A stretch of DNA of 64,000 bases, from positions 1-64,000 of the forward strand of contig CAMDHK010000003.1 of assembly GCA_945897965.1 (NCBI GenBank), given 5' to 3'. The translations under genes and the position numbers were made by a program. The notes under the pieces were generated by a model. That model searched no databases and was not told the DNA's origin. It saw only the letters and a program-made list of their open reading frames with translations. Positions within the stretch are counted from its first letter, which is position 1. Each line of letters starts with the position of its first letter. Source of the DNA: Candidatus Kuenenia stuttgartensis. GTDB lineage: Bacteria; Planctomycetota; Planctomycetia; Gemmatales; Gemmataceae. This document shows positions 1,453 to 47,383 of the stretch, in pieces.

Positions 1453-1476
1453 CGGGGACCTTTCCTTTTTAAGAGT

Positions 1477-1941: not shown

Positions 1942-1998
1942 TCTAGGATGATTTTAAAAATTTTTCTTTATCTGGATGACGAGAATCTTAGAAGAAAT

Positions 1999-3204: not shown

Positions 3205-3228
3205 TAGAAAGCCATCCTTTGAATCAGT

Positions 3229-3681
3229 TTATTCGGATAGTTGAAAATCGATTACATTGTTTTTTCTAGCAACTTCTGCAGTAAGACCAGAAGTTTCGGG
3301 CCTAGAGTATTTTAAAGGGGTAATGATTTTGCCTCTTACAAAATCAAGGGCGTCTGCTGGTTTTAGCTTGCTATCGCCACCTTCTTCTGCGCGAATTGTA
3401 ATGGCGTATTTGCCAATCTTAGCACCATCATTGATTTGAAAAGAGGTGAGTTTGTATTTCCCGTCTTTGTCGGAACTGCCTGCTGCAACCCGTCCAGTTG
3501 TGTCTTCTGGGATAAAATTAATTGCGGCATCAGCAAGGGGTTTGCCTTTGAAAAAGATTGTTCCTGAAACAGGAGCTAAACCTCGATCATCGCCAGAGCA
3601 TCCAAGATGAATAATAGAGATTAAAAGCAAAATCCAGTACCTGGTTTTTGCTGAAGTATTGAAATTCTGGAGAATATACAT
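3229..3681 (-). CDS. Transthyretin/carboxypeptidase-regulatory-like lipoprotein, array copy 2
   Basis: Lipobox IIHLGC; LAPVSGTIFFKGKPL. Confidence 0.85.
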   Translation of the reverse strand: MYILQNFNTSAKTRYWILLLISIIHLGCSGDDRGLAPVSGTIFFKGKPLADAAINFIPEDTTGRVAAGSSDKDGKYKLTSFQINDGAKIGKYAITIRAEEGGDSKLKPADALDFVRGKIITPLKYSRPETSGLTAEVARKNNVIDFQLSE

Positions 3682-3750
3682 AACGAATTCCCTTCTAGGA
3701 AGATTTTGAGAAGTTTTCTTTATCTGGATGACGAGAATCTTAGAAGAAAT

Positions 3751-4956
3751 TTAATCATTGTTGACCTCACCACCATCACGACTTCCAAGCGCATTGTATG
3801 ATTTTTGATTTATGCCATCGACTATGGTTCTAACAGAGCCATCTCCTAAGCAAACACCAATAACTCCGGTATGATAACTGTTAAATCCCCAAGCTTGCCA
3901 GCCCGGATCTCCGCAAGAAGCAGGTTTGCAAGGGGTGTTGTTGGCTTGAGTGCTGTTGATGTTAAGGCCCAATTGCATGCAAGGTCGAATAAAATTAGGG
4001 GGCAAAGAAGTTCCGCCTACGGATTGGCCTTGGTACCAAGAAGATCTATTGTGAGCGGCATTCGAAACAGTGTGACCAATCATGATAGTGTTTGAAAAAC
4101 CATCTGGAACATCAGCAATTCGGATCGTATTTGCAGTTTTTGAAGTACTTCCAGAGGGAACATTGCAATTTGGTACTCCCGTGTTGCCCCTGCCCGCAAA
4201 AAAACCTCGCCCCCCACTTACATCACCAGAGTTTCCTTTACCACTGCTTCCAAGATAGTTGGTGGTTTTAGGTCCCGCAATTGGGTCTCCACCGTTGTTG
4301 TATAGTGCCCACGACCCCCTTGCGCTGTATTTGTCGCAACCATCGTCCGATGCTGCATTGTAAGGCTTTCCCGCACTTGCAGTATACCCATCGCCAAAAG
4401 ATCCTACGTAACTGGAATGCTGAGCGTAATAAGTGTTATTTGGAAGGTCGGGGCCATCACCCGGCTGAACTTCAGCCGGGGCTATTGTGCAACTCCAACC
4501 GCTTGCATTTCCAATAACGCCCACCCCGCCGTTATAATCGCCATAGGTATTGTTGGAAGCTGGTTTAGCGTCAGAGGGGCAGTTAAGTTGTTGCAAAACA
4601 GCCATGCGCAATGGCTTAACCCTGGCAGTTCCATAACTATAGTTAAAATCGGGAAGTTTACCTAAAGCCTCTTGTTCAAGATAAGGGAGTAGTTTTGGGA
4701 TCCATCCCCAGCAGGCGAGCCCTGTCCAAGAACCATCAGATGGAAACTGTGTTTGGGGGAAACAATTGTAAGTGCCGGCATAATTTTGCATAGCTAGGCC
4801 AAGTTGTTTTAGGTTGTTGCTGCATTTAGCACGAGCAGCGGCTTCTCTAACTTTTTGAACTGCAGGAAGCAGTAAACCAATAAGAATTGCAATGATGGCA
4901 ATAACTACTAATAATTCAATTAAAGTGAAAGCTTTTCGCAATGGATTGTTTTTCAT
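3751..4956 (-). CDS. DUF1559 prepilin-like protein, array copy 3
   Basis: [47 protein letters not shown]-terminal [24 protein letters not shown]. Confidence 0.95.
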
Positions 4957-4977
4957 GGGAGAGATCTTTTTAAGGAG

Positions 4978-5430
4978 TTAATCAGTCAGTGCGAAGTCTA
5001 TAACATTGTTTTTCTTAGCAACATCTGCTGTTAATCCGGAGGTTTCTGGCCTGGCATATTTAAAAGGCGTGAGCATTTTTCCTCGAACATTAGTGATATC
5101 ATCTGCAGCTTTAGGGGGGCCATCGGGAATTTCGTAGGCACGGATAGTAACGGTATGTTTACCGATTTTTGCACCATCATTGATTTGAAATGAAGTCAGT
5201 CGATATTTACCATCTTTGTCGGTGCTGCCTACGCCAACTCTGATATTATCTTCGTCGGGAGTAAAAATCACCCCGGCATTGGGAAGAGGTTTCCCATTAA
5301 ATAAAACAGTTCCTGAAACGGGCGCTAAACCCCTATCATCGCCAGAACAGCCTGCTATAGTCATTAAAATAAGAAACAATACTGAACGCAACATCTGTAC
5401 TCTCGGCAGGTGTGTGAAGTTGAACAACAA
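4978..5430 (-). CDS. Transthyretin/carboxypeptidase-regulatory-like lipoprotein, array copy 3 (first gene of the array; start may be the internal Met near 5394)
   Basis: MLRSVLFLILMTIAGC lipobox; LAPVSGTVLFNGKPLPNAGVIFTPDED. Confidence 0.85.
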   Translation of the reverse strand: MLFNFTHLPRVQMLRSVLFLILMTIAGCSGDDRGLAPVSGTVLFNGKPLPNAGVIFTPDEDNIRVGVGSTDKDGKYRLTSFQINDGAKIGKHTVTIRAYEIPDGPPKAADDITNVRGKMLTPFKYARPETSGLTADVAKKNNVIDFALTD

Positions 5431-5647: not shown

Positions 5648-8116
5648 GTGTTAATGATCGGTCCCGCCTTGAGACAAGCCTATATGTTGTATCTTCTTGC
5701 GTTATTATTTGCAATCTATACGAGTTCCGCAAGTTTTGCTTGGGGCGCCGATGGTTTGACCATTGAACCTCCAGTAATTGAGTTAAAAGGCCCAGGCGAA
5801 CAAGTACAAATCAGGGTTTTAAACGCCAAGGGTGAAGATGTAACTGCTAATTGTGTTTTTAAGTCACACGATGGCAACACCGTTCGGGTTTCTAATAAGG
5901 GGCAGGTGATATCCAACAAAGCTGGCCAAACGAAAATCGAAGTTGTCAATCAAAGTTCGGTTCAATTAGTTGCAGTTAAAATAGCTGAAGCAGATGCGGG
6001 TTCAAAAGTAACGTTTGAAAAAGACCTTCAGCCGATTTTGACGAGGTATGGTTGCAATGCTGGTTCATGCCACGGAAAGCAAAGAGGTCAAAATGGTTTT
6101 CAATTATCTCTTTTAGGGTTCGATAATGACTTTGATTTTTATGCGCTTACTTCGGAATCACGCGGTAGGCGGATATTTCCAGCTTCGCCCAAAGACAGTT
6201 TACTTTTGAAAAAGGCCTCCGGGCAGGTTCCGCATGGGGGTGGAAAAAAGCTTCCCGAAGATGGTAACGCTTATGCCCAAGTTCTGGAGTGGATTAAAAA
6301 TGGCCAACCTAGATCCACACATGATGAACTTAAAGTTGTAAACATTGAAATAATTCCTTCTGAAGTTAAGATGCTTCCCCGAACTAAGGTTCAGACTCGA
6401 GTTTTAGCGCGCTACAGCGATGGCACCAGCAAAGATGTCACCCATCTAGCAGCTTTTCAATCAAGTGAAAGTGTTCTTGCGTCAATTGATGCCGAAGGTA
6501 TGATTCAATCGGGGCCACTTCCTGGTGAAGCAGCTATCATGGCTCGGTTTATGGAAAAGTTTAGCGTTTGTTTGGTTACTTTACCTTTGCCAGAAACTTT
6601 AAATGTAAATTTGCCTACGAGAATTGATTCTCAGCATTACATCGACCGATTGCTTTCGGATAAATTTGTAAAGCTGGGGCTTTCTCCTTCTGACTTAGCT
6701 GCGGATCACACTTATTTAAGAAGAGTATATCTTGATCTAATCGGAAGGTTGCCAACCCCTGAAGAGTCTCGATCATGGTTGGCAGAAACAGCCCCTGACA
6801 AAAAAGAAAAGCTGGCGTTACGTTTACTTTCACGACCAGAATATGCTGATTTTTGGGCTAACAAATGGGCTGACCTTTTAAGGCCAAATCCATTTCATGT
6901 AGGTATGAAAGCGGTTTTTGTGCTTCATACCTGGTTGCGCGATTGCTTTCGCAAAAACCTTCCTTATGACCAGTTTGCGAAACAAATTATTACAGCAGAT
7001 GGTAGTACCTTTCGCGATGGTGCATCTGTGGTCATTCGAGATAAAAGGCAACCGGATGAACTTACCACCGTTATCAGTCGGCTATTTTTAGGTATCAGGC
7101 TTGAATGTGCCAAATGCCATCACCATCCATTTGAAGTTTACGGGCAAGATGATTTTTATCATTTTGCGGCATTCTTTGGCAGGATTGGAAAGAAAGGGAC
7201 GGGTATTTCAGCTCCGATTTCAGGTAGTGAAGAAATGTTTTTTCTTGCCAAAAAGGGTGATGTCAAGCATCTTCGAACAGGCGAGATAATGAAACCAGCG
7301 CCTCTAAAAGGCAAAGTAATGGAATTCACAGAAGACGAAGACCCAAGGCAAGCGCTTGCTGCTTGGATTACCTCGGATGAGAACCCCCTATTTGCTAAAG
7401 CTGCGGTCAATAGGATTTGGGCCGATTTAATGGGGAGAGGATTAGTTGATGCAGTTGATGATCTTAGAGCTACTAATCCTCCTTCTAATCCTGCTTTACT
7501 TGATGCTTTAGCGGATGATTTTCGCAAGCATCATTACGATGTTAAGCACCTTCTTTATACGATTGTTACTTCAAAAGCATATGCGCTTTCCAGTAAACCC
7601 AATGAGCGAAACCAAGGCGATACCCGTAATCATTCCAGGCATTACCGAATGCGTCCCCGGGCTGAAGTTTTGTTAGATATGGTAAGCGATGTCACCGGGG
7701 TTGCAGAAAATTTTCCTGCGATGCCTGAAGGTTCAAGAGCTATGGAAATGTGGACTTTTCGGTCAGCTTCTGAGTTTTTAGACAGCTTTGGCAGGCCCGA
7801 TCCTAATCAAGATCCTCCGTGTGAACGAAGTTCCGACTCTACAGTTGTGCAGGCCTTGCATCTTATGAATGCGAAGAATATTCAGGCTAAAATAGTTGCT
7901 GATAATGGAATTGCCTCGAAATTAGCATCTGGTTCGGGTAGTATTGAGCTGGCTATTGAAGATTTGTACCTGCGTTGTTATTGTAGATTTCCCACCAATG
8001 CTGAACGCGATGGTGTGATTTCGCTTGCGAAAAGTAAAAACCAAGCCAGAAAACAAACCTTGGAAGATTTGCTTTGGGCTTTGATAAATTCTCCTGAGTT
8101 CGTTTTGGTCGACTAA
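5648..8116 (+). CDS. Planctomycete cytochrome-type protein with Ig-like, DUF1549 and DUF1553 domains
   Basis: Signal peptide; CNAGSCHGKQRGQNGFQLSLLGFD; DUF1549-like LSDKFVKLGLSPSDLAADHTYLRRVYLDLIGRLPTPEE; CAKCHHHPFEVYGQDDFYHFAAFF; DUF1553 C-terminus. Start may be GTG 5648 or a downstream ATG. Confidence 0.9.
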   Translation: MLMIGPALRQAYMLYLLALLFAIYTSSASFAWGADGLTIEPPVIELKGPGEQVQIRVLNAKGEDVTANCVFKSHDGNTVRVSNKGQVISNKAGQTKIEVVNQSSVQLVAVKIAEADAGSKVTFEKDLQPILTRYGCNAGSCHGKQRGQNGFQLSLLGFDNDFDFYALTSESRGRRIFPASPKDSLLLKKASGQVPHGGGKKLPEDGNAYAQVLEWIKNGQPRSTHDELKVVNIEIIPSEVKMLPRTKVQTRVLARYSDGTSKDVTHLAAFQSSESVLASIDAEGMIQSGPLPGEAAIMARFMEKFSVCLVTLPLPETLNVNLPTRIDSQHYIDRLLSDKFVKLGLSPSDLAADHTYLRRVYLDLIGRLPTPEESRSWLAETAPDKKEKLALRLLSRPEYADFWANKWADLLRPNPFHVGMKAVFVLHTWLRDCFRKNLPYDQFAKQIITADGSTFRDGASVVIRDKRQPDELTTVISRLFLGIRLECAKCHHHPFEVYGQDDFYHFAAFFGRIGKKGTGISAPISGSEEMFFLAKKGDVKHLRTGEIMKPAPLKGKVMEFTEDEDPRQALAAWITSDENPLFAKAAVNRIWADLMGRGLVDAVDDLRATNPPSNPALLDALADDFRKHHYDVKHLLYTIVTSKAYALSSKPNERNQGDTRNHSRHYRMRPRAEVLLDMVSDVTGVAENFPAMPEGSRAMEMWTFRSASEFLDSFGRPDPNQDPPCERSSDSTVVQALHLMNAKNIQAKIVADNGIASKLASGSGSIELAIEDLYLRCYCRFPTNAERDGVISLAKSKNQARKQTLEDLLWALINSPEFVLVD

Positions 8117-8129
8117 AAAGGAATTTCTT

Positions 8130-9443
8130 ATGAATACTTTTATCAAAAAGATGCCTTCAAGACGCGATGGCCTGATTCTTGGGTTAGGTGGTTTACTAGG
8201 TGGCGGCTTTTGTTCGGCTTTGCAAGCTCGTGAACTCGCAACCCGTAAAGTGCAAGCTAAAAGCGTTATCTTAGTTTGGTTAGATGGTGGCCCTACTCAT
8301 TATGAAATGTTTGATCCTAAACCTGATGCACCAACTGAAATCCGCGGCTCTTTCAAGCCGATAAGCACTAAAATCCCAGGTATCCAATACTCTCAGCATC
8401 TCCCCCAGCTTGCTTCGATTGCAGATAAGCTTGCAATTGTTCGTTCTGTTCAGCATGATCAAGGTAACCACGGCGCAGGTAATCATTACATGATGACAGG
8501 GGCGCCACCCAGAATCCCAGTAGGATGTGGTGCTTTTGTTAGCTTTCACCCTAGCATGGGCTCTGTTGTTTCTTCAGAATTAGGCGCCCCTCCTGGATTG
8601 CCCCCTTATTTCTCTTTGCCTTCGATGACTCGATCAGGCGGCCCTAATTTCCTTGGAGCCCGACATGCCCCGTTTGTAGTCGATGGCAGCCCTAACAGTG
8701 CTAATTTTAGAGTTCGCGATGTAAGTCTTCCCAAAGAATTGGACGGTTCAAGAAAAGTAAACCGCGAAGAAATGCGCCAAGCTGTTGATAAATTTGTCCG
8801 ATTTGCTGACAAGCAAGTTGGTGATCCTGCAACCGCAATGGACGATCATTACCGACAGGGGCTTGACCTCATGCGTTCTGCAGAAGCACAAGCTGCTTTT
8901 GATATTCAGCGCGAGCCAGACTCTGTGCGCGAAACCTATGGCAGAAATGATTTCGGCCAGCGAGCACTTCTTGCTCGTAGATTGGTTGAGGCTGGTGTTC
9001 CATTTATTGTTCTTAATGATGGTGGTTGGGATCATCACACCAATATTTTCCCTACTTTGGAAAAACGATTACCTAGTTTCGATGCTACTATTGCGGCATT
9101 GGTTAAAGATCTTGATCAACGGGGTATGCTTGAAACTACATTGGTTTTGGTTTTAGGTGAATTTGGTCGTACTCCACAAATTAACAAAGATGGTGGCCGC
9201 GATCATTGGTCAAATGCAATGTCTATCATGGTGGCGGGTGGCGGAACTCCAGGTGGTCAAGTTGTTGGTGCCACTGATAAACGTGGTTACGCAGCTTGCG
9301 AAAGAGTTCTTACTCCTGAGCATTTCTCTTCAACCATATATTCCAAATTGGGCATTGCGCCTGATAAAATTCTATATGCGCCTAACGGTAGGCCTTCACA
9401 TATTGTTAGCAATCCTGAAATCATCAAGGAGCTTATGGGGTAA
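8130..9443 (+). CDS. DUF1501 domain-containing protein
   Basis: SVILVWLDGGPTHYEMFDPKPDAPTEIRGSFKPISTKIPGIQYSQHLPQLA; LGEFGRTPQINKDGGRDHW. Confidence 0.93.
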   Translation: MNTFIKKMPSRRDGLILGLGGLLGGGFCSALQARELATRKVQAKSVILVWLDGGPTHYEMFDPKPDAPTEIRGSFKPISTKIPGIQYSQHLPQLASIADKLAIVRSVQHDQGNHGAGNHYMMTGAPPRIPVGCGAFVSFHPSMGSVVSSELGAPPGLPPYFSLPSMTRSGGPNFLGARHAPFVVDGSPNSANFRVRDVSLPKELDGSRKVNREEMRQAVDKFVRFADKQVGDPATAMDDHYRQGLDLMRSAEAQAAFDIQREPDSVRETYGRNDFGQRALLARRLVEAGVPFIVLNDGGWDHHTNIFPTLEKRLPSFDATIAALVKDLDQRGMLETTLVLVLGEFGRTPQINKDGGRDHWSNAMSIMVAGGGTPGGQVVGATDKRGYAACERVLTPEHFSSTIYSKLGIAPDKILYAPNGRPSHIVSNPEIIKELMG

Positions 9444-30990: not shown

Positions 30991-31770
30991 TTAGTTGGAA
31001 AGATTTAAAACTTTATTGGAATTAATCCATAATTGGTTTTCAAGTTCCGTCATAGAAATGCCTAATGCGCTTGCTAGGGTTTTAATGGTGTAGTTTACAT
31101 AAGATGGCTCATTTCTTTTGCCTCGAAAAGGTTCGGGCGCAAGATAAGGAGCATCGGTTTCAACTAGAATTCGATCGATTGGGCATTTGGCTGCAACATC
31201 CCTGAGTAAGTCGTTTTTCTTGTAAGTAATCATTCCTGCAAATGATAAGAACAAGCCTAAACTTAAGCATATTTCTGCATTTTCAAAGGTACCCGTAAAC
31301 GAATGAAGAATTCCTTTAATTGGGCCATTGTTGTGCATATCATTTTCTAAAATAGGCAGCATGTCATTCCAAGCATCTCTACAATGAATCAAGATTGGCA
31401 AATCGTATTTTCTGGCAAGTTGAATTTGCGATATAAAGTAACGGATTTGTAAATCGAAGGGGCAGTAATCCCTAAATCGATCTAGTCCTATTTCCCCAAG
31501 AGCAATCGGTCCTTTTTCTTTTATAAATGATTCTAGTAACTCAAGACTGTTCTCCGGGTTTTGTGTAATGGAGTTAGGGTGAATCCCTGCACTGAAATAC
31601 ACTCCTGGATACTTAGTTGCTATTTCTAAGCAACGTCTGCTTGAATCGATTCCTGTTGCTACGCACAAAACCCTATTGTTGGTTTCTTTGGTGAATCCCC
31701 CGATAATACTCTCTAAGTCTGTGGAGTATTTTTCATCATCAAGGTGAGCATGAGTGTCAAATAGTGGCAT
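30991..31770 (-). CDS. tatD: TatD family hydrolase (start set at MPLFDTHAHL; track ORF is N-terminally over-extended to 31848)
   Basis: MPLFDTHAHLDDEKYSTDLESII; ALGEIGLDRFRDYCP; LVETDAPYLAPEPFRGKRNEPSYV. Confidence 0.93.
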   Translation of the reverse strand: MPLFDTHAHLDDEKYSTDLESIIGGFTKETNNRVLCVATGIDSSRRCLEIATKYPGVYFSAGIHPNSITQNPENSLELLESFIKEKGPIALGEIGLDRFRDYCPFDLQIRYFISQIQLARKYDLPILIHCRDAWNDMLPILENDMHNNGPIKGILHSFTGTFENAEICLSLGLFLSFAGMITYKKNDLLRDVAAKCPIDRILVETDAPYLAPEPFRGKRNEPSYVNYTIKTLASALGISMTELENQLWINSNKVLNLSN

Positions 31771-31787: not shown

Positions 31788-33530
31788 TTACTTTACCAAT
31801 GTGATTTGAATCAATTCTGATATCGCTGAAGTGCTGGGCATGTACCAAGAAAGCATTAAGTTCGGAAATATGCCAAGAGCAAGAATGGGTATGATAATTG
31901 CAAAAGTTAAAATGATTTGAGGAAGTTTGATATCACAAAGGGGTGGCGTACTTGAACTCTCACCCAGAATAATATTTAAAATGCGATAGCATCCAATGAT
32001 CACAAGTATATAGCTAATACCCGTGATTAATGCTGGAATAAACCCAAATTGCAGCACAGAACCTGCTAATAAAAATAACCCAAGGGAGTTGATAAATCCT
32101 GGGCACCCAAGAGTTGCAACCAATAAAATTGAAAATGAACAACCAATAATAGGTGCTTTTTTTAGTGTTCCAATTTTGAAATCAATTATATCAACAAGAA
32201 TCTGGTCTTTTAATTGTTTCCACAAATAAACCAATCCTGTTATGCACAAGTATCCGCCTAGAAGCCATATCAGCGAACCAGCAAATGTTTTTGCTTTCCA
32301 AATATTTGGCGCCCCTGCAAATGAATTCATTATGCCCATATAACAAATGAATTGTAACCAGCAAGAAAGAAATGCGATGAAGCGTTCGGGCGAATTTACA
32401 AATAAGAACATGAAGCTTATTGCCACTGTTATCCCAACCATTACCCATGTCAGCCAATGGGCAGAAGAAACTATACCTGCAGGAAATATTTGAATGCCAA
32501 ATCGGGTGAAAATGTAAATGCCAAGTAATGGAAATGCCCCTGCTAAAAGCATTGCTACCGGCAGGCGAGTGTCTTGATATGTTTTATAAATCAAAGCCAT
32601 TAATGGAGAAGAGAATCCTAATAGTAATGCTGCGCCTAGAACAGCAAGAAGCGAAAATGTATGTTTGGTTTTTGCAGATTTACTTAAATTGGTTCGCGAT
32701 TGTGCGACTTGTTCAAGTCCAACGCGCTGGAATGCTAAAATATTGAAAGAATGGTAAGACAAGTAATCCGTGCGTTGTTTTTCAGACCAATCTGGGTGTG
32801 CTCTTTCGATTTGTTTTTGTACAATTTCGATCTCACCTTCATTTGCAAATTTGGTCAAATCAGATTTATAACAATAAGTTAAAACGCCCGCTAAAATCAA
32901 AAGCCCAATAGTGTTGACAGTACCAAAAATAAATGCCGAGTTGTTTTTGTTTTGTCCTCCCCAGTTCTGGAGCAAAAAGTAATAAGACAAAATACTTATT
33001 GCTAGAAAAATTAAAACGATCACGCCATCAATTGCCAGTAGTGTACCTATCAATCCAAATTCGGAAATAAATAGTAATGGAAAAAAATTACCTTCCATGG
33101 CTGAACCGAACCATGCGGCAAGTAATGCGACAAAATAAATTAAAGCGACTAAAACGATAATCGCAAGACTTAAGCCATCAAGCCCAAGTAAAAAATTTAT
33201 GCCTAATTTAGGCATCCAACGAACTTTGGTTACCCAGTCAAAACTTTTATGCACTTCGTAACCAGGAACTAAATCTACATTCTTTCCTCTTTCAAAAAGG
33301 GAAGTTTGCATTCGGGTGTTTTCATTATCAAGCACCCCTAATTGCTCAACCGTGTCGTATTTGAATTGAACGGCCATACCTAAAGAGATTCCTAAGGTTA
33401 ACGCCCCACCAAGGGCAGCAATCCAAGGGGTAATTTGATTTAAACTGAACGAAGAAAAGTAGCAAATTAATGCAAAAACTAGGGGGGTTCCCAATAATGC
33501 TAAAAACCAAGCTAAATCTAGTTCCTGCAT
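31788..33530 (-). CDS. NuoM-like (complex I antiporter-type subunit) membrane protein, apparently lacking channel residues
   Basis: GINFLLGLDGLSLAIIVLVALI; FGLIGTLLAIDGVIVLIFLAISILSYYFLLQNWGG; LLVATLGCPGFINSLGLFLLAGS all align to NuoM motifs. Confidence 0.75.
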   Translation of the reverse strand: MQELDLAWFLALLGTPLVFALICYFSSFSLNQITPWIAALGGALTLGISLGMAVQFKYDTVEQLGVLDNENTRMQTSLFERGKNVDLVPGYEVHKSFDWVTKVRWMPKLGINFLLGLDGLSLAIIVLVALIYFVALLAAWFGSAMEGNFFPLLFISEFGLIGTLLAIDGVIVLIFLAISILSYYFLLQNWGGQNKNNSAFIFGTVNTIGLLILAGVLTYCYKSDLTKFANEGEIEIVQKQIERAHPDWSEKQRTDYLSYHSFNILAFQRVGLEQVAQSRTNLSKSAKTKHTFSLLAVLGAALLLGFSSPLMALIYKTYQDTRLPVAMLLAGAFPLLGIYIFTRFGIQIFPAGIVSSAHWLTWVMVGITVAISFMFLFVNSPERFIAFLSCWLQFICYMGIMNSFAGAPNIWKAKTFAGSLIWLLGGYLCITGLVYLWKQLKDQILVDIIDFKIGTLKKAPIIGCSFSILLVATLGCPGFINSLGLFLLAGSVLQFGFIPALITGISYILVIIGCYRILNIILGESSSTPPLCDIKLPQIILTFAIIIPILALGIFPNLMLSWYMPSTSAISELIQITLVK

Positions 33531-33651: not shown

Positions 33652-34383
33652 TTGCCTAGTTTAACAAACTGGACTGGAAGTATGATTCAGCAAAAAGTAA
33701 TCCAAAAGTTTAATAAAAACAATAAACATAAGGTTATTGATTACTTCTGGAACAACCAAAAACTTAATTCACGCAGTACCATTGGTAATGAACCAAAAAC
33801 TAATGGGTCTGAAGTTGAAGGATATCGATCAGATTCAATTGCGGCATTGGAAGCATTGCTTTTTCTCGCAGATGAACCCTTGGTAACAAAAAAAATCGCT
33901 TCTGTTTTAGGTTGTAAGAACAGTTCCGAAGTGCGAAGTTTACTAAAAGAATTGCAAAAAAAATATAAAGTTGAAAATAACAGCTTTCATATCGAAGAAG
34001 TAGCTGGCGGTTTTCAGTTGCTTTCAAAAAAAGAATTTCATCCTTGGCTTGCAAGAGTTTACGCACGAAATGTTGAAGTTCAAGTTAGTTCAGCCATGAA
34101 AGAAACTTTGGCTATTGCAGCTTACAGGCAACCAATTACTCGAGCAGATATTGAGCAAATACGCGGGGTTAATTCTTCGGAAGTGATTAGAAATTTGGTT
34201 GAAAAAAACTTGCTTCGAATCGTCGGAAGAGATGTTACTCTGGGAAGGCCTGTTTTATACGGCACAACTCGAAAGTTTCTACAAATTTATGGGTTAAAAT
34301 CACTCAAGGATTTACCAAAAACAAATGAATATGGAACTCCCGGTGCAATTCCTGATGAAGATGTTTCGTCAACCGAACAATAA
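33652..34383 (+). CDS. scpB: Segregation and condensation protein B
   Basis: ALEALLFLADEPLVTKKIASVLG; MKETLAIAAYRQPITRADIEQIRGVNSSEVIRNLVEKNLLRIVGRDVTLGRPVLYGTTRKFLQIYGL. Confidence 0.93.
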   Translation: MPSLTNWTGSMIQQKVIQKFNKNNKHKVIDYFWNNQKLNSRSTIGNEPKTNGSEVEGYRSDSIAALEALLFLADEPLVTKKIASVLGCKNSSEVRSLLKELQKKYKVENNSFHIEEVAGGFQLLSKKEFHPWLARVYARNVEVQVSSAMKETLAIAAYRQPITRADIEQIRGVNSSEVIRNLVEKNLLRIVGRDVTLGRPVLYGTTRKFLQIYGLKSLKDLPKTNEYGTPGAIPDEDVSSTEQ

Positions 34384-37466: not shown

Positions 37467-38855
37467 TTATGCAATAATATCCTTGTGAACAGTACCTTCA
37501 ACATCGGTTAATCTGAAATCTCTTCCTGAATAACGATAGGTCAATTTTTCGTGATTAATCCCCATTAAATGAAGCATGGTAGCATGCAAATCGTGTACAT
37601 GCATTTTCTTTTCTTCGGCTGCAAAACCAAATTCATCGCTAGCTCCATGAACATAGCCGCCTTTGACACCACCACCTGCAAGCCAAACAGTAAAACCATG
37701 ATTGTTATGATCTCTGCCTTTAGATCCTTCAGAAGTCGGGGTACGCCCAAATTCGCCTCCCCACAAAACCAAAGTTTCATCCAACATTCCTTTGGATTTT
37801 AAATCTTTTAATAGCATTGCAATCGGTTGATCGGTTTGCTGGGCAAGTTGGCGATGTTGTGCAATATCATCATGATTGTCCCAAGGTTGTCCGCCTCCAG
37901 TGAATATTTGCACAACTCTAACGCCTCGTTCAACCAATCTTCTCGCAGTAAGGCAAGCTTGTGCAAAAGGTGAACTTCCGTACCCTTCCCGGATGTTTTT
38001 AGGTTCATGGTTTAAGTCGAATACTTCCTGTGCTTCAAACTGCATCCGAAAAGCCATTTCAAGAGATTGGATCCTAGTTTCAAGTTGATTATCAGCACCG
38101 CCCCTTTTTTCGAGATGCACTTGATTGATTTTTGAAAGGTAATCCATCATTTCTCGTTGTGAAGTTTTTCCAAGGGATGAGTTGGATACATTTTGAATGA
38201 TTTTTTTAGGGTCCATGGTGGAATTGTTGATATGAGTGCCCTGATAAACACCAGGCAGAAAACTGCTGCTCCATAATTGTGGCCCAACCACAGGTTTGCC
38301 TGGACACATTACTACAAATCCAGGGAGATTTTTATTTTCAGTTCCAAGGCCATAAAGAAGCCACGATCCCATGCTAGGCCTAGTGGGTTGTGTTTCACCG
38401 CTCGTCATCATTAATAAAGAAGGTTCATGATTAGGTATATTAGTATGCATCGAGCGAATAACGCAGATATCATCAATGCAACTTGCTATTCCCGGAAATA
38501 TTTCACTGACTTCAACACCAGATTTTCCATGCTTGCTGAATTTGAAAGGAGATTGCATTAAACCGCCTGTTTTTCTTTCAGTGGATTTGTTTGCAATATC
38601 GGGGCGTTGGCCATTGTATTTGATTAACGATGGTTTTGGGTCGAAAGTGTCAACTTGAGAAGGTCCACCATTCATAAAAAGGTGAATCAAGTATTTCGCT
38701 TTTGGTTTAAAGTGAGGTTCTTTAGGGTTTAACGGGTTACCACCACTAGGAGCACCTTGTAAAAATCCTGAATCTGAAAGAAGGCTTGTTAGGCCTATCA
38801 TACCAGTTCCTGCTCCCAGATTATGAACCATTTCTCTGCGTGTTAATAAAGACAT
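37467..38855 (-). CDS. DUF1501 domain-containing protein
   Basis: KAKYLIHLFMNGGPSQVDTFDPKPSL; WGGEFGRTPTSEGSKGRDHNNHGFTVWLAGGGVKGG. Confidence 0.95.
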   Translation of the reverse strand: MSLLTRREMVHNLGAGTGMIGLTSLLSDSGFLQGAPSGGNPLNPKEPHFKPKAKYLIHLFMNGGPSQVDTFDPKPSLIKYNGQRPDIANKSTERKTGGLMQSPFKFSKHGKSGVEVSEIFPGIASCIDDICVIRSMHTNIPNHEPSLLMMTSGETQPTRPSMGSWLLYGLGTENKNLPGFVVMCPGKPVVGPQLWSSSFLPGVYQGTHINNSTMDPKKIIQNVSNSSLGKTSQREMMDYLSKINQVHLEKRGGADNQLETRIQSLEMAFRMQFEAQEVFDLNHEPKNIREGYGSSPFAQACLTARRLVERGVRVVQIFTGGGQPWDNHDDIAQHRQLAQQTDQPIAMLLKDLKSKGMLDETLVLWGGEFGRTPTSEGSKGRDHNNHGFTVWLAGGGVKGGYVHGASDEFGFAAEEKKMHVHDLHATMLHLMGINHEKLTYRYSGRDFRLTDVEGTVHKDIIA

Positions 38856-38874
38856 TGCTCAGTTCTTTCTAAAT

Positions 38875-41538
38875 TTAATCGATGTACATGAATTCATTGC
38901 TTGCCAAGAGGGCCTGTGCCATTCGTTCCCAGCGGTCCATTTTGTTTATTGGTTTATCGTTGTTTTCTTCATTAGCATGAAGAAAAAACATTGCCAATTC
39001 TAATTCATTTGGTGAAGGCGGCCTCGAAAATAATATTTTGTACGCAGCGTTGATATTTTCTGCTTCTGATTTAGAAATAGCTTGAATTCTTTTTGCTAGC
39101 AATTTGGATTGTTCAATAACAAAAGGACTGTTGATGATGAATAATTGTTGCTGTGGTACAGTAGTTTCGATTCGTCTTTCACTGGTGATATTTGGATCAG
39201 GGAAATCAAATATTCGCAAAAGTGAATTTAGTTCATGTCTGCTGATTTTTGCGTAAAGGGTTCTTCTTTTTGAATTGTCATCGCTAAGGTTGAAAGTTGG
39301 ACCGCCAATGGTTTTATCTAGTGAGCCTGCTGCACTTAAGATGGAATCGCGCCAAGATTCAATATCAAGTCGTTTTCTGTTGAATTTCCATAAGTAGGTG
39401 TTATCTGGATCAATATTCATGTTGTTCGCGATGTTTTTTGATGATTGCTTAAATGTATCAGAGCAAAGGATATATCTATGTAATGATTTAATCGACCAGC
39501 CAGAGTTGATTAAATATTGTGAAAGGTGATCAAGTAACTCAGGATTTGAAGGTGCTTCACCTAGTTTTCCAAAATTGCTAGGTGTTGCCACTATGCCTTT
39601 GCCAAAATGCCATGCCCATATTCTATTTGTTATTACCCTTGCAGTAAGCGGATTATCAGCGGTTGCGATGGCATCAGCTAGTTCAGTGCGACCACTACCC
39701 TTAGCGAAATTTTTACGATTATCATCAGATAAAATTTTAAGAAAGCGCCTTGGCGCTAATTCCCCTTGCTTAGATGGGTTTCCTCGTATGTATATTTTTA
39801 AATCTGATGGAGTTGATTCTGCTATGGCATTTACAATAGGCAAGTTTTCGGGAGTTATTTTTTTTAACTCTCGGTTGTTGTCTTCAAGATTTTTTAATTC
39901 TTCTGCTTTTTCTTTGTTAAGTTCTTTTTTCCAAGAATCACCTAAAGCCAATATCCCATCTGCTTCAAAAAAAGCAGCGTAAATTTCAGAGTTCTTGTTC
40001 GGTTTATCTTTGGCAGCAGTAGTTTTTTCATTACGTATTATTTTTAAAAGTGATTCTTTAGCTTTGGCTGCTGCTTGTTTCTTTTGTTCTTGCGTGGAGT
40101 TCTCTTTTATTTCGTTCCAAGGATCTGTAAAAAATGAGAACTTCTTGTTAGCTTTATTCTTCTCAATAAATTTTACCCATTTCTCGAGCATGACTTTTTC
40201 ATTCGGGTAATCATTAAATGAGGTTTTGGGATTGGATTTTTTTTGGTCGATATATTGGTAACTTAACTCGTAATATTTTTCGAATTCTAAACAACGCTTT
40301 TCAACAAAGGGAAGTCTTTCGCTGTGAATGAAATAGTTTAATTTGTTTTCAGAGTCTGTTAATTTCTGCTTTGCTTTCTCGTATATTTTCAATTCTTCTA
40401 ATGAGCATACTGGTGTGTTGTTTAATTTTGATGAATGAAATACACCTGCTATTGAGTAATAATCTTGAGTTGGTATTGGATCAAACTTATGATCATGGCA
40501 GCGAGCGCAACTAACAGTTAGGCCAAGAAAACCCCTAGACAGCGTATCAATCCTATCGTCAAGTTCATCTGCAATTGCACGAGCTGCATCGGTGTTTTTG
40601 TAATATTGAGCGCCTAGACCAAAAAATCCCAAAGCTGCAAGATTCTCTGTTCTTCTTGGTTCTGGAGTCAAATCTGCAGAAATTTGGTATCTAACGAAAT
40701 CCGTGAATGGCATATCTGTATCAAATGCCTTAATAACCCAATCTCTATACTTATAAGCATCGCTATTGGGTTTTACTCCAAAGGTATGTGCTTGGTCTTC
40801 TGCATATCTCGCAACATCTAGCCAGTGCCTTCCCCATTTTTCTGCATATGTCTTGGTTGAAAGGTATTTATCAACAAATTTAGAATAGGCCGCATCGGAA
40901 TTGTCCCGATTAAATTCTTCAACATCTTCAACAGAGGGTGGCAATCCTGTTAAGGTAAAACTTAGCCTTCGTATGAGTTCATTAGGTGTTGCTTGAATTG
41001 ATTTTGATAAACCTTTTGCAACTAATTGGTTTGAAATGAATGTGTCAATTAAGCTGCTGGTATTTTTTGCGGTATTAGGTTTTGTATCTTTAATTGGTTT
41101 AAAAGCCCAAAAGTTTTTACTCTTATCCCAATCAATTGCTTCTGTGGTTGTCTTTGATTTGTTTTCTCTAGGGTCCGAAGCGCCTTTTGCAATCCATTCT
41201 TTGATGTTGTTAATCGCAGTTGCACTAAGTTTTCCTTTGGGAGGCATTTTTAAATCGCCTTGATAAAGTATGGCTTTCATTAAAAGGCTTTTATCAGGAT
41301 TCCCGGGAACTATCGCGGGCCCGGTGTCTCCTCCTTTTAACAGTGCTGCTTTAGAATCAACCAACAAGCCTCCACGTACTTTCTTTCCTTCTGCATGGCA
41401 TTCATAACAATGCTCAATCAGGATGGGCCTAATGTTGGATTCGAAGAAAGTAAAATCTTCTGCTTTTGCAAAATTTGATAATGCATCAAGGAGAAAATAA
41501 GAAGCAAGTATATTTAAAACAACTCTTTTATTAAGCAT
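38875..41538 (-). CDS. PSCyt1/DUF1549/DUF1553 cytochrome-type protein
   Basis: FFESNIRPILIEHCYECHAEGKKVRGGLLVDSKAALLKGGDTGPAIVPG; RLSFTLTGLPPSVEDVEEF; CARCHDHKFDPIPTQDYY; TNRIWAWHFGKGIV. Confidence 0.95.
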   Translation of the reverse strand: MLNKRVVLNILASYFLLDALSNFAKAEDFTFFESNIRPILIEHCYECHAEGKKVRGGLLVDSKAALLKGGDTGPAIVPGNPDKSLLMKAILYQGDLKMPPKGKLSATAINNIKEWIAKGASDPRENKSKTTTEAIDWDKSKNFWAFKPIKDTKPNTAKNTSSLIDTFISNQLVAKGLSKSIQATPNELIRRLSFTLTGLPPSVEDVEEFNRDNSDAAYSKFVDKYLSTKTYAEKWGRHWLDVARYAEDQAHTFGVKPNSDAYKYRDWVIKAFDTDMPFTDFVRYQISADLTPEPRRTENLAALGFFGLGAQYYKNTDAARAIADELDDRIDTLSRGFLGLTVSCARCHDHKFDPIPTQDYYSIAGVFHSSKLNNTPVCSLEELKIYEKAKQKLTDSENKLNYFIHSERLPFVEKRCLEFEKYYELSYQYIDQKKSNPKTSFNDYPNEKVMLEKWVKFIEKNKANKKFSFFTDPWNEIKENSTQEQKKQAAAKAKESLLKIIRNEKTTAAKDKPNKNSEIYAAFFEADGILALGDSWKKELNKEKAEELKNLEDNNRELKKITPENLPIVNAIAESTPSDLKIYIRGNPSKQGELAPRRFLKILSDDNRKNFAKGSGRTELADAIATADNPLTARVITNRIWAWHFGKGIVATPSNFGKLGEAPSNPELLDHLSQYLINSGWSIKSLHRYILCSDTFKQSSKNIANNMNIDPDNTYLWKFNRKRLDIESWRDSILSAAGSLDKTIGGPTFNLSDDNSKRRTLYAKISRHELNSLLRIFDFPDPNITSERRIETTVPQQQLFIINSPFVIEQSKLLAKRIQAISKSEAENINAAYKILFSRPPSPNELELAMFFLHANEENNDKPINKMDRWERMAQALLASNEFMYID

Positions 41539-41695
41539 AAATTAATCTTACATCATGGGGTGAGAATATACGGCTAGACCAGTTATTTTAGTTAAATTAA
41601 CAGGTTTTTGCAAATCATTATTTTAGGTATAAGCCACATATCCCTCCAAGTTGTACTTTCTCGAAGGATTTTAGGCCAAAATGCTTGATTATTTA

Positions 41696-42622
41696 TCAGC
41701 GCAGTGGTTTATCGCTTATTGCCACGCCATTGGTTTCCAAAATTTGAAAGTGATGGATGCTAGCGTTTTTACTATTAGTGTAAGTCCACACGATTTTTTT
41801 ATCTCTGTTCACTTCAATAAGTTTTGTTTCATTTGCTTTTGCATGATGGGAAGTAATAACAGTATTCCCATTAGGAAGACGATGACCGCCACATGCATCA
41901 TTAATTGGTTTTCCTGGTAAATCATCATTTGATAGCGACCAAACTGTCTGCCCTTTGGGATCAACTTCAATTACTAGATTTCCTAAAGTACAATTAATTA
42001 GAGTGTTCCCATCAGGAAGGCGAATTGCAGTAAACGGCCAGTTGGGGGTTTTTACTTCCCAAACAATTTTACCATCTGGAGAATATTCGCGTACAACTTT
42101 GTCTAAGAGTTGCGGGATAAGATAATTGCCATTGGGGAGTTTACGAGCCATTCTTGTTTGTAAATGATGATCTTTTGTTTGAGCTTGAATAGGCATATCG
42201 ACGATGATTTTTCCTTCGCGGGAAACCTCAATCAATCGAGGTTTCGGTCCTGCTTCAGTGAACATAATGTTTCCGTTATCTAAAGGCATAACCGTATTTA
42301 CTTCTGATTGAGTGCCTTTAAATTCAAAAACAGTTTTACCTTCCTTGGTGATTTCTAGAACAGCCCCGCCTGGATATTCTTTTCCTTTTGATACTGCCAG
42401 CAAAGCGTTTCCGTTAGCTAAAAGCCATCCATCTCTTGAAGATTTTGGTATTTGCCAAGAAATTTTTCCGTCATTATCAACAAAAAATGTTTCTGCCCCA
42501 AAAACAATGAATGAATGGCTTATTTCAGCAGATAATGAAAAATTTAAATTGGTGAAAACTGAAATTATAATAAGTGGAAGTAAATATAATAATCGTGGTA
42601 TTGAGGGGATGTGAATCATCAT
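41696..42622 (-). CDS. PQQ/arylsulfotransferase-like beta-propeller protein
   Basis: Repeated LPNGNYLIPQL, LPDGNTLINC, LPNGNTVITSHH followed by ...EVDPKGQTVWS blade motifs. Confidence 0.8.
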   Translation of the reverse strand: MMIHIPSIPRLLYLLPLIIISVFTNLNFSLSAEISHSFIVFGAETFFVDNDGKISWQIPKSSRDGWLLANGNALLAVSKGKEYPGGAVLEITKEGKTVFEFKGTQSEVNTVMPLDNGNIMFTEAGPKPRLIEVSREGKIIVDMPIQAQTKDHHLQTRMARKLPNGNYLIPQLLDKVVREYSPDGKIVWEVKTPNWPFTAIRLPDGNTLINCTLGNLVIEVDPKGQTVWSLSNDDLPGKPINDACGGHRLPNGNTVITSHHAKANETKLIEVNRDKKIVWTYTNSKNASIHHFQILETNGVAISDKPLR

Positions 42623-42801
42623 AAATCCTTAATATTTAGTAAGAGAAAAACCCATAGTAGCCATTTTACACATAAATTTTGTTACGAAGTCTAGTATTCT
42701 AATCAATCTTTTTAATCAAACCTAAAACATCAAAATAACTATAAAACCAATTTGTAGGAAATTCCAATTGTAATTTTGTTGCTTGAATAAATAAGGTTTA
42801 A

Positions 42802-43878
42802 TTACTTTAAATCCTTAAGATTTAATTTCTGTTGAAGAACAACTCCGCCTTTTTCATCACAGACTTGGAATCGCAATATTGGTAGATCTGAAGACCAATC
42901 GATTTCGATCATGCCGAAATTTGTATCAAAGTAAGTTAAACCTAAGCGATAAGAATTTATTTCGTTTGAGAATCGTGTTCCTGCCTTTGAAAAGTTACCA
43001 CTGGGGGTATTAAGACTGCTGGAGGTTATCTCATAAATAGGATAGTTGATCCCAAATGATTTAGCAGGCATTTTCATTATTTCTGCCAAATGCCTGTCCC
43101 CACTTAAAATTACAAGGCCGTTAGCATTGGTTTTGCTTATTAATTTGAAAAGTTTTTCTCTTTCAGAGGGGAAATTACCCCACATTTCGGAACCATGTTC
43201 ATCAGGGATTGCTTGTACGCTTGAACATAACAATCTAATTTCTGCAGGCTGAGATAAAACTTTTTCTAGCCATGCCCATTGAGGATTTCCAAGCACGGTG
43301 GAATTCGGATCTCGGTTAGGTGCGTATTTACCACGGTAACCTTCACCAGGTTCACCTGGTTTATAACCTTTTTTAAGTGGACTGCGAAAATAACGGGTAT
43401 CCAAAAGAATGATTTGAATTCTTTGGCCTGGTTTCCCAATTATTTCTGAATGATAAACACCTTCTTGGGTTCTACGGGGGCTCTGTTTTGCAACTCCAAA
43501 AAAATCAAGAAATAACTGTTGGGATTCTTTTTTTTTGGGGTAATCAGCTCCTGCATCATTTCCGCCGTAATCATGGTCATCCCAAGTTGCAAGAATTTTT
43601 GTTTTCTTTTTTAATTCTACATATCCTGGTTGTTCGCCGAGCATCTCCCATTTTTTCTTGAGTAATACCATATCTTCTGTATCGCCATAAATATTATCAC
43701 CTAGAAATAGGAAAAGTTGTGGGTTCTTTTCGATGATTGACGCCCAAATTGGTTGAGGTTTATCCTGTTTCGCACAAGAACCAAAGGCTATTCTAGTTAA
43801 TGTTTCTTGGGCTAAAAGTTTTTGTTCATTTGTAAAAAACAACAGTAATAATAAAAAAACATTTGTTTTAATATTCAT
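42802..43878 (-). CDS. PhoD-like alkaline phosphatase/phosphodiesterase
   Basis: RIAFGSCAKQDKPQPIWASI; LFLGDNIYGDTEDM; ATWDDHDYGGNDAGADYPKK; LVILSGDRHLAEI. Confidence 0.93.
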   Translation of the reverse strand: MNIKTNVFLLLLLFFTNEQKLLAQETLTRIAFGSCAKQDKPQPIWASIIEKNPQLFLFLGDNIYGDTEDMVLLKKKWEMLGEQPGYVELKKKTKILATWDDHDYGGNDAGADYPKKKESQQLFLDFFGVAKQSPRRTQEGVYHSEIIGKPGQRIQIILLDTRYFRSPLKKGYKPGEPGEGYRGKYAPNRDPNSTVLGNPQWAWLEKVLSQPAEIRLLCSSVQAIPDEHGSEMWGNFPSEREKLFKLISKTNANGLVILSGDRHLAEIMKMPAKSFGINYPIYEITSSSLNTPSGNFSKAGTRFSNEINSYRLGLTYFDTNFGMIEIDWSSDLPILRFQVCDEKGGVVLQQKLNLKDLK

Positions 43879-43928
43879 AGTTAAGCTTTCAGGTGTTTTT
43901 GAATTTTACTTAATAAGTTACACAATGA

Positions 43929-45293
43929 TTAAGCAAAAAGACAATCCATTACTTTGCCACGATTTAGCTGGGAAGGCCGTTTTTGTCTATCTACTATTTC
44001 GGCATCAGGCTCGATGCCCAATGCATGGTAAACGGTAGCACCGAGATCATCGGGAGTGAAAGGGACAGAAACTGGATAGGCACCAATTTTATCTGATTTT
44101 CCAACAACATTCCCACCTTTAACTCCAGCGCCAGCAAACAATGTGGTGTAACAGGCAGCCCAGTGGTCTCGGCCATTACCACTAATTTTTGGTGTCCTGC
44201 CAAATTCCCCGGTAACGATCACCAGAGTTTCATCGAGGAGCCCCGTGGATTCCAAATCATCAAGCAAACAAGATACTCCCCGATCAAGAGGAGGCAAAAG
44301 TTCGTTTTTCAATCGGGTAAAATTGTTGCCATGTGTGTCCCAATTTTGAACCCTACCCATATTTGCCTGAACTACGGGAACTCCAGCTTGGGATAACCTT
44401 CGTGCAAGAAGTAAAGATTGGCCAAAGGAGTGATTCCCATACCTGTTTCGACTTGCTAAAGGTTCAAGATTTAAATCAAAAGCTTTGGCAATTTTACCAG
44501 AAGCCAAAACTGAGAGTGCAAGTTCTTGTTGATGCGCCAGTCTCTTTGTTGAGGCAATCGATTCTAGATTTTTTTGTTGATCGTTTACTTGCTTTAACAG
44601 GAGGTTTCGTTCATTAACCCTATCAATAGCAATTCCAGGGAAAAGCGAAACATTGTCGACCTTAAAATCAGGTTTTGCAGGGTCTTGATTAATTTGCCAT
44701 GGATCATGCCTTGGTCCAAGGAAGCCAGCATGTTGGCCTGGCCAAGTTAAAGGCCCTTCTAAAAGAAAGGTTGGAAGGTTTATCCCGCTGGGAATACCAT
44801 CAGATCGGGGCCTAAGGTAATCTAACGCAGAACTAAAAGAAGGCCAATCATCTCTGGAAGCAACTTTGTCAAAAAAACCACCTGGTTGTTGATGCCCTGT
44901 TATTGTGTGATGGGTTGCCACTAAGTGGTTGTTTTCTTTGTGTGCCATACTTCGCACTAAAGCATATTTATTAGCACGCATAGCCAGCATGGGAAGATGT
45001 TCGGAAATCTGAATACCAGAAACATTTGTTGATATAGGCTTAAATTCGCCTCGGATTTCAACCGGCGCATCAGGCTTCATATCAAACATATCAATATGAC
45101 TTGAGGCCCCGGTAAGGAAAACAAGAATAACCGACTTAGGTTTTTTAGTATTTAAGGAAGCAGTCAACCCAAGATTACCCATGCCTAAACCAAATAAACC
45201 TGAAAAGCCTACTTGAAGTAATTCTCTTCTTATTATGCCTGTGGAGTGCAAATGTTGCTGTTTTTGATTATTCAAGGCGGGATCCCTTAACAA
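43929..45293 (-). CDS. DUF1501 domain-containing protein
   Basis: KSVILVFLTGASSHIDMFDMKPDAPVEIRGEFKPISTNVSGIQISEHLPMLA; VTGEFGRTPKISGNGRDHWAACYTTLFAGAGVKGG. Confidence 0.95.
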   Translation of the reverse strand: MLRDPALNNQKQQHLHSTGIIRRELLQVGFSGLFGLGMGNLGLTASLNTKKPKSVILVFLTGASSHIDMFDMKPDAPVEIRGEFKPISTNVSGIQISEHLPMLAMRANKYALVRSMAHKENNHLVATHHTITGHQQPGGFFDKVASRDDWPSFSSALDYLRPRSDGIPSGINLPTFLLEGPLTWPGQHAGFLGPRHDPWQINQDPAKPDFKVDNVSLFPGIAIDRVNERNLLLKQVNDQQKNLESIASTKRLAHQQELALSVLASGKIAKAFDLNLEPLASRNRYGNHSFGQSLLLARRLSQAGVPVVQANMGRVQNWDTHGNNFTRLKNELLPPLDRGVSCLLDDLESTGLLDETLVIVTGEFGRTPKISGNGRDHWAACYTTLFAGAGVKGGNVVGKSDKIGAYPVSVPFTPDDLGATVYHALGIEPDAEIVDRQKRPSQLNRGKVMDCLFA

Positions 45294-45406
45294 GGATTCA
45301 ATGTCAATACTTTAGGATAAGCTTAAATCGGCATTTCTGGAAGACTTTTATTTGGAAAAATGGGTGAGAATTCATGTTGGGTTAAATTATTGTCATTAAA
45401 CAATGA

Positions 45407-47383
45407 TCAATCATAGGTTTTGAGCCCAAATTGGTTTAAAGCCTTAATAACTATTTCGTTTCGTAATAAACTAAGGAATTTAAGAATTTCCGGGCGTTTA
45501 ATCCTGTTTTTAGGCATTACAAAGTCATACTGTTCTTCGGCAATAGGAATAAAACAAAGGTCGGTATTTTCAACTGCAGATTGTATTGCAATCCCCCAAT
45601 CGGAACGCTTTTGGAGTATGGATGCAACCACTGCGGTATGGGATTTTACCTCTGCAAGATAACCACTGGGGCGTACATTTTTTAGTAACCGGTCTATAAG
45701 AATTCTGGTTCCACTGCCTTTGTTTCGATTTACCATCAAGAGATCTGATTGATGAGTAGCAATGTAAATTGCTGCGGCTAAATCTTTAACTGCGAATCTT
45801 TGATCATCTGGCCTAAATACAAAGCCCTGTAATCGCCCGTAACCTTTAATTAATTCAATTTCATTATTAAGAAATGGCTGGTTGTAAGTGTTGGATTGTT
45901 CATCCAATAAATGAATACCTGCAATATCGCACTCATTTCTTTTTACCGCTTCCAAGCCTCCAGTACTGCCAACAGGGAGAAATTTCGCGGTAATCCCAAT
46001 TTCCCTGAGTTTGCTTATTAAATAATCCAATCCAATGCAGTGACTTCCGATGATTACCAAATCTGCAGGTTCGATTTCTTTCCCAATCAGTTGAACATCA
46101 ACAATTTCATCTGCCTCAAGATATTCGTTTTTTTTGGGTATCACGATAAACCCATCAGCTTTTGCAAAAGCAGTAACCGAACCCGACCCTTTTCCCATTG
46201 GATAAGCGTAGTATTGAGAATTAATAGTTTTTTCAGGTTCTCCATTAGTGTTATTCTGGACTAATCCCACTAACAGGAATTCCGTTCTACCTCGCTCAGA
46301 ATTCACCCTGAAGGGAAGAGTTGCTTTAATGGTTTTTTTGTTTCTGACTAATTTGCCAGCCATGCATTTTAATACAGGCGCTACGAATTCTTGAAAAGTA
46401 AATATTGCAGAAGTGGGAAAGCCTGGGAGAACTACCACCGGAATTTTTCGTTCCTGATGATTGACAACAGCAAGACATAAAGGTTTACCAGGTTTTAGCG
46501 CTATGCCATGTGCTACAATTCCGGGTTTTCCTAGTTCAGCAACAACTTTATAGGAAAGGTCACCACCGCCTTTTGATGTTCCTCCTGAAAGAAGAATTGC
46601 ATCATATTTTAAGCAGGAATCCAGAGTGGTTTTTAAATTTTCCCAGTTATCTTTTATAATTCCCAAACAGACAACTTCGCAGCCCAGTTCTCTCACAGCA
46701 TCAGCAAGCACGGTGCTGTTACTATCGTAAACACACCCAAGAGGCAAAAGCATGCCCGGCGCAATGATCTCATCCCCCGTCGAGAAAATTGCAACAATAG
46801 GCTTCCGAACAACAGAAACCATATTTATGCCGAGTGCTGCGAGAACCCCTGTTTCTCGGGATGATAAAACCTCTCCTTTTCGTAAAACGATTTCACCTTT
46901 GCTAATATCAGTTCCAGCAAAACTAATGTTAGCTCCGGGTGCAATAGCTCTGTTAATCAACAATCTGTCGTTTTTAAAATCAGTATGCTCGATCATGACA
47001 ATTGCATCAGCACCTCTGGGCAACATGCCCCCGGTAGCAATTGGTAGAGCTAAATTAAATTCAACTACTGTTCTTGGTTGAAAACCCGTAACGATGTTTT
47101 CATCCCCAACTTTTAATGATTTGATTGAATCTTCGGAAGCGCCAAAAGTATCTTCAGCCTTCAGAGCAAAACCATCAACATTTGATCGGTCAAATCCAGG
47201 CACATCAATTGGTGCGTAAACATCAACTGCAAGAACTCTGCCTAATACCTGATCAAGAGGGACGGTTTCGCTCTCAAGAGCAGACATATTTAATTCTGAT
47301 TGGAATAATTCTTCCGCTAGATCGCGATCGATCACATTAAGAAACTGTTTTTGATTGATTGATTCGTTCATATATTTAGTCAT
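45407..47383 (-). CDS. moeA: MoeA-type molybdopterin molybdenumtransferase fused to a periplasmic-binding-protein-like domain
   Basis: PIDVPGFDRSNVDGFALKAEDTFGASE; IATGGMLPRGADAIVMIEHT; VAIFSTGDEI; C-terminal GSHCIGLDYLISKLREIGITAKFLPVGSTGGLEAVKRNECDIAGIHLLD...VNRNKGSGTRILIDRLL. Confidence 0.92.
   Translation of the reverse strand: MTKYMNESINQKQFLNVIDRDLAEELFQSELNMSALESETVPLDQVLGRVLAVDVYAPIDVPGFDRSNVDGFALKAEDTFGASEDSIKSLKVGDENIVTGFQPRTVVEFNLALPIATGGMLPRGADAIVMIEHTDFKNDRLLINRAIAPGANISFAGTDISKGEIVLRKGEVLSSRETGVLAALGINMVSVVRKPIVAIFSTGDEIIAPGMLLPLGCVYDSNSTVLADAVRELGCEVVCLGIIKDNWENLKTTLDSCLKYDAILLSGGTSKGGGDLSYKVVAELGKPGIVAHGIALKPGKPLCLAVVNHQERKIPVVVLPGFPTSAIFTFQEFVAPVLKCMAGKLVRNKKTIKATLPFRVNSERGRTEFLLVGLVQNNTNGEPEKTINSQYYAYPMGKGSGSVTAFAKADGFIVIPKKNEYLEADEIVDVQLIGKEIEPADLVIIGSHCIGLDYLISKLREIGITAKFLPVGSTGGLEAVKRNECDIAGIHLLDEQSNTYNQPFLNNEIELIKGYGRLQGFVFRPDDQRFAVKDLAAAIYIATHQSDLLMVNRNKGSGTRILIDRLLKNVRPSGYLAEVKSHTAVVASILQKRSDWGIAIQSAVENTDLCFIPIAEEQYDFVMPKNRIKRPEILKFLSLLRNEIVIKALNQFGLKTYD

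Follow-up and report, generated by a model that had tools for sequence, protein, structure and literature searches.

The window, by which we mean the whole 64,000-nt stretch of DNA analysed, is part of a metagenome-assembled planctomycete genome of 4.39 Mb in 393 contigs. On its minus strand, at 31788-33530, lies a gene with an ATG start (ORF call) that encodes a 580-aa NuoM-like membrane protein with 13-14 predicted transmembrane (TM) helices. This gene, referred to here as the orphan, has tatD, scpB, pyrE and truD as neighbours. The tatD-like nuclease gene (30991..31770, minus strand; a start at 31770 is better than the TTG at 31848) begins 17 bp downstream, and the two genes are probably co-transcribed. 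This arrangement is inherited from an older operon, and as evidence for a link to TatD it is weak. On the other side, 121 bp from the orphan and divergently transcribed, is a scpB-like gene (33652..34383, plus strand). The two flanking genes are those of an ancestral nuoHJKLMN operon, and no relics of nuoH, nuoJ, nuoK, nuoL or nuoN were detected in the window, including the space between the orphan and scpB. The plasmid search gave no match. These planctomycetes also carry another scpB-like gene, with about 32% identity to the orphan-side copy (G001:C266, G004:C13, G003:C17 and G005:C158).

The original prediction described the product as NuoM-like, which is borne out by both homology and predicted fold. 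The NuoM profile TIGR01972 matches with an E-value of 4.5e-34 and 118 bits, which is below the family cut-off of 263.8. The antiporter domain PF00361 has no match in the orphan and scores 190-223 bits in operonic and canonical NuoM. Sequence matches in the PDB are NuoM/ND4 chains throughout. The AlphaFold2 model (alignment of 16) has a pTM of 0.83 and a mean pLDDT of 75.9, and a Foldseek search with it places NuoM/ND4 chains best, with a TM-score to target of 0.77-0.85. The 14-TM antiporter fold of NuoM/ND4 is thus predicted for the orphan, the LDGLSL and GxPG motifs are kept, and the predicted number of TM helices is unchanged across all orphans (13-14). By sequence and predicted fold, the orphan is a NuoM homologue. 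It shares its superfold with the antiporter-like proteins MrpD and DabB (MrpD TM-score to target 0.76-0.79), but it has no adjoining mrp or dabA gene, and the DabA/DabB pair of the genome is on another contig, C98. This pair (G000, L016:1-4246) is of the inorganic carbon uptake type; its DabB looks short at 455 aa, and it is followed by a NuoM/N-like protein of 441 aa with a degenerate antiporter domain (PF00361, 42 bits).

The orphan has lost the charged residues of the NuoM channel. This was seen in an alignment that joined it to 12 further orphans, to 20-21 operonic relatives, and to the NuoM of its own genome and of E. coli K-12. In E. coli numbering, the channel glutamate E144 is replaced by A177 (33000..33002, minus strand, as for all codons given here), the channel lysine K234 by L304 (32619..32621), the central lysine K265 by L335 (32526..32528), H322 by L392 (32355..32357), H348 by G426 (32253..32255) and E407 by L485 (32076..32078); M311 is found at the H241 position. 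All of the charged and histidine residues at these seven positions are kept in E. coli, the genome's own NuoM and 20/20 operonic relatives; therefore, the charge loss is no alignment accident. The changes at E144, K234, K265 and E407, and the loss of the histidine in the AHGLSAAG motif, had been called by eye, and each call was correct. Profile and multiple alignment place no Glu or Lys at the channel positions. In NuoM, E144 and K234 form an ion pair, and K265, H322 and E407 lie along the proton path (PMC9271201). Since all titratable channel residues are lost, the established mechanism makes pumping very unlikely, and the orphan is very probably incapable of proton translocation.

The remaining charges differ among genera. 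The predicted TM helices contain 1-2 charged residues in the window genus, G034, G027, G096 and genus g15, and four in G097. Genus g25 has 5-8, none of them at the classical positions, and one operonic and one canonical NuoM have 7-8.

The genome also contains a canonical complex I that looks complete, with NuoC to NuoL on contig C13 and a NuoM that keeps all of its charges beside NuoN on contig C239. The window gene is therefore an extra NuoM, and the possibility that it is the only one in the genome is ruled out. No NuoL, NuoN, NuoH, NuoJ or NuoK partner is encoded beside the orphan, and the single NuoH and single NuoD of the genome belong to the canonical complex.

The origin of the extra copy is evident from related genomes. 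In most other Gemmataceae genera, the site between scpB and tatD is occupied by nuoHJKLMN, which encodes the membrane arm of another complex I; both flanks were seen in L053, L056, L097 and L099. Outside its own group, the orphan is most closely related to the NuoM of these operons. This operonic NuoM has the same locus, the same length and the same TM6-TM7 insert, and it is sister to the orphans in the tree; in contrast to the orphan, it keeps E144, K234, K265, H322, H348 and E407 as well as five partner genes. NuoD and NuoH are each present twice in genomes with the operon, and once each in the window genome, in G034 and in those congeners that gave matches; the other orphan genera tested have one NuoD (split or absent in the most incomplete of the metagenome-assembled genomes). 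A lone M gene at the scpB-tatD site, its nesting among operonic NuoM and the single NuoD and NuoH together identify the orphan as all that is left of the second complex I. Its ancestor was the NuoM of that deleted complex and not the present NuoM of the genome. The original prediction of a paralogue holds in so far as a canonical NuoM is also present, but the line of descent is through the deleted complex. Likewise, no nuo genes lie beside the orphan, as had been noted, but its isolation is not by chance, because it sits at the site of the deleted nuoHJKLMN, 17 bp from tatD. Elsewhere, in L051 (G014), tatD does not adjoin the M gene, which also has no NuoN match beside it, so the second operon may have been partly eroded or rearranged there too.

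The complex that disappeared probably had 11 subunits. Complex I-like enzymes with 11 subunits and without nuoEFG are known (PMC11238625). In L057, an outside genome, nuoA, C, D, H, J, K, L, M and N are found together and nuoEFG are not nearby, which points to this type; the second nuoD of Gemmataceae-type genomes is located apart from nuoHJKLMN and also has no nuoEFG beside it. Unlike in the 11-subunit enzymes (PMC11238625), the rest of such a complex was not found in the window genome.

The M gene stands alone between scpB and tatD in five genera: g1 (the window genome, G001, G002 and G004), g29 (G034), g22 (G027, G096 and G097), g25 (G030, G108, G109 and G110) and g15 (G020 and G105, where the flank was seen on the scpB side only). 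The reading frame is intact in 13 of these 14 genomes, and in G108 an assembly gap falls inside the gene. When 102 genomes from across the order were searched with the orphan alignment, the best match of every carrier reached at least 390 bits and all other genomes gave about 300 bits or less. True gene loss in the congeners G003, G005 and G006 was considered and not concluded, since these assemblies lack the whole locus: the scpB copy that adjoins the orphan is missing too, and pyrE has no good match. Orphan absence cannot be called there. The named records are environmental metagenome-assembled genomes, and the orphan group consists of lake bacteria.

The 13 orphans cluster within operonic NuoM in the M tree, as a single group with a support of 100/100 and with long branches flagged; this agrees with the shared locus in indicating common descent from a NuoM. 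The orphan genera also cluster in a PPK tree that does not depend on the M gene, with a support of 90/85 that is not conclusive by itself. Both trees give the same order, with g1 beside g29 and g15 with g22 and g25. The simplest reading of these sequences is one deletion of the partner genes followed by vertical inheritance.

The orphan is maintained by selection. The dN/dS among four congeneric copies (six pairs, 93-94% identical) is 0.10-0.17; the values for its neighbours are 0.09 (tatD), 0.06 (scpB), 0.07 (truD) and 0.035 (pyrE). Identity between genera is only about 20-40%, and the distance ratio to PPK across genera is 4.9 for the orphan and 1.8 for operonic NuoM. The low dN/dS together with the fast change between genera indicates a protein that is kept under weaker overall constraint. 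A pseudogene with a broken frame or neutral evolution is ruled out by this dN/dS and by the intact reading frames in 13 genomes. A relic that decays slowly and has no new function is very unlikely. Such a relic would account for the disappearance of every other subunit of the complex, the fast divergence and the loss of most channel features; however, the dN/dS already disfavours decay, the frames have stayed open in five genera across that range of identity, and new invariant residues have been gained.

These new residues are part of a shift in conservation along the protein. Regional identities were calculated from five sequences per set, with the membrane core taken as residues 113-222 and 293-554. 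The mean pair identity of the core is 0.20 among orphans versus 0.68 among operonic NuoM, and TM7-TM12, the former channel lining, is the least conserved part of the orphans (22-24%). The loop between TM2 and TM3 (residues 58-112; 33195..33359, minus strand), which is predicted to be periplasmic, shows the reverse, with an identity of 0.42-0.47 among orphans versus 0.29-0.34 among operonic NuoM (0.42 versus 0.34 in the sets of five). It is the best-conserved stretch of the orphans outside TM1-2. Compared by site, the shift between loop and core has a p of 9e-17, an approximate value that treats sites as independent. Within the loop, the alignment gives the orphan signature D59 T60.... G65. L67..... 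R73 (33312..33356, minus strand), with G110 further on; its general pattern is [FY][KR][YF]DT-x4-G-x-L-x5-R. Each of D59, T60, G65, L67, R73 and G110 is invariant in 13/13 orphans and is found in 0-2/20 operonic NuoM. The class we propose, a neofunctionalised orphan of the second complex I, is defined by a lone M gene at the scpB-tatD site that has lost the channel charges and carries the D59-T60-G65-L67-R73 signature; it comprises 13 complete sequences in five genera.

In complex I structures, the termini of the 14-helix NuoM core and the TM2-TM3 loop are on the periplasmic side; by homology, the orphan loop would be periplasmic as well. The charge counts per loop neither support nor exclude this side. 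AlphaFold2 models the loop at low confidence (pLDDT 46-50), and a PDB sequence search for homology to another domain returned only weak NuoM matches.

A hydrophilic insert of about 80 residues had also been singled out in the middle of the protein. An insert of about 70-80 residues is indeed present between TM6 and TM7 (residues 223-292; 32655..32864, minus strand), but it is not special to the orphan. Operonic relatives that bear the channel charges carry it too; therefore, it is ancestral and was rejected as an innovation. Its identity is 0.26 among orphans versus 0.36 among operonic NuoM.

The conservation pattern also bears on two other possible functions. The orphan could still be a transporter that passes another substrate, e.g. 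a small uncharged or lipid-like solute, through the NuoM cavity. The full helix set is kept and some genera have a few other polar or charged TM residues, which is consistent with such a role; however, low conservation in TM7-TM12 is the opposite of what is expected for a substrate path, and this function is improbable. Somewhat less improbable, but still doubtful, is that the orphan belongs to the remaining 14-subunit complex I as an accessory or regulatory component, docked on the canonical membrane arm as a non-pumping partner, a brake or an assembly factor. In favour of this, the orphan comes from a subunit of complex I and has retained the fold, and a canonical NuoM is found in at least one genome of every orphan genus. 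On the other hand, the orphan is not near the canonical nuo genes, and the NuoM from which the canonical complex stems is a distant relative in the tree. In addition, conservation among orphans is lowest in the membrane core, where NuoM touches neighbouring subunits.

The reading we prefer, to which we assign a probability of about 0.6, is that the NuoM fold has been reused as a non-pumping membrane protein that acts through its predicted periplasmic loop. The non-pumping antiporter fold with a new role that was originally proposed is supported at the sequence level by the charge loss, the purifying selection and the new invariant loop signature. In this sequence of events, an ancestor of the five genera deleted the second complex I between scpB and tatD and retained M alone. 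The M protein kept its 14-helix fold but lost all titratable channel residues. The membrane core became a loosely constrained scaffold and conservation moved to TM1-2 and the TM2-TM3 loop, so that the N-terminal part and this loop would form the working surface. Descent, deletion, charge loss, selection and the shift in conservation are shown by the sequences, whereas the absence of pumping, the periplasmic side and the binding of a partner are inferred. Most probably, the protein would be anchored in the membrane and transport nothing, and its outer loop would bind or position a partner. The more specific form of this idea has about even odds: a stand-alone, non-transporting "pseudo-pump", comparable to a pseudo-enzyme, which outlived its own complex and binds a dedicated partner with an outer loop that evolved anew. 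Several observations weigh against the preferred reading. The loop is modelled at low confidence and its side rests on the topology of NuoM, the speed of the orphan relative to PPK also fits a largely relaxed constraint, and g25 keeps more TM charges than the other genera.

Antiporter-like subunits are treated as meaningful only inside complex I, Mrp or membrane-bound hydrogenases. The fold and descent of the orphan are of a known kind; in a literature search of incomplete coverage, we could not find a description of a lone, charge-less NuoM or a paper on a second complex I in Gemmataceae. At this locus, the states that preceded and followed one repurposing event are both readable, since the ancestral operon is intact in sister genera and was lost once, and constraint can be traced from the proton channel to the outer loop. 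If the preferred reading is true, the orphan would be the equivalent of a pseudo-enzyme in membrane transport, and a natural case of an intact NuoM fold stripped of every channel charge. Such genes may pass in annotation as "NADH-quinone oxidoreductase subunit M", although they are very probably unable to pump.

The window also has two groups of repeated genes. At 241-5430 (minus strand), a gene pair is present in three tandem copies that are 59-89% identical to each other; the pair encodes a 401-403 aa pseudopilin-like protein (start: 16 protein letters not shown) and a 150-154 aa lipoprotein-like protein. At 37467-47383 (minus strand) and 5648-9443 (plus strand) are several diverged copies of a pair of large planctomycete proteins, one of the cytochrome-domain type and one DUF1501-like.
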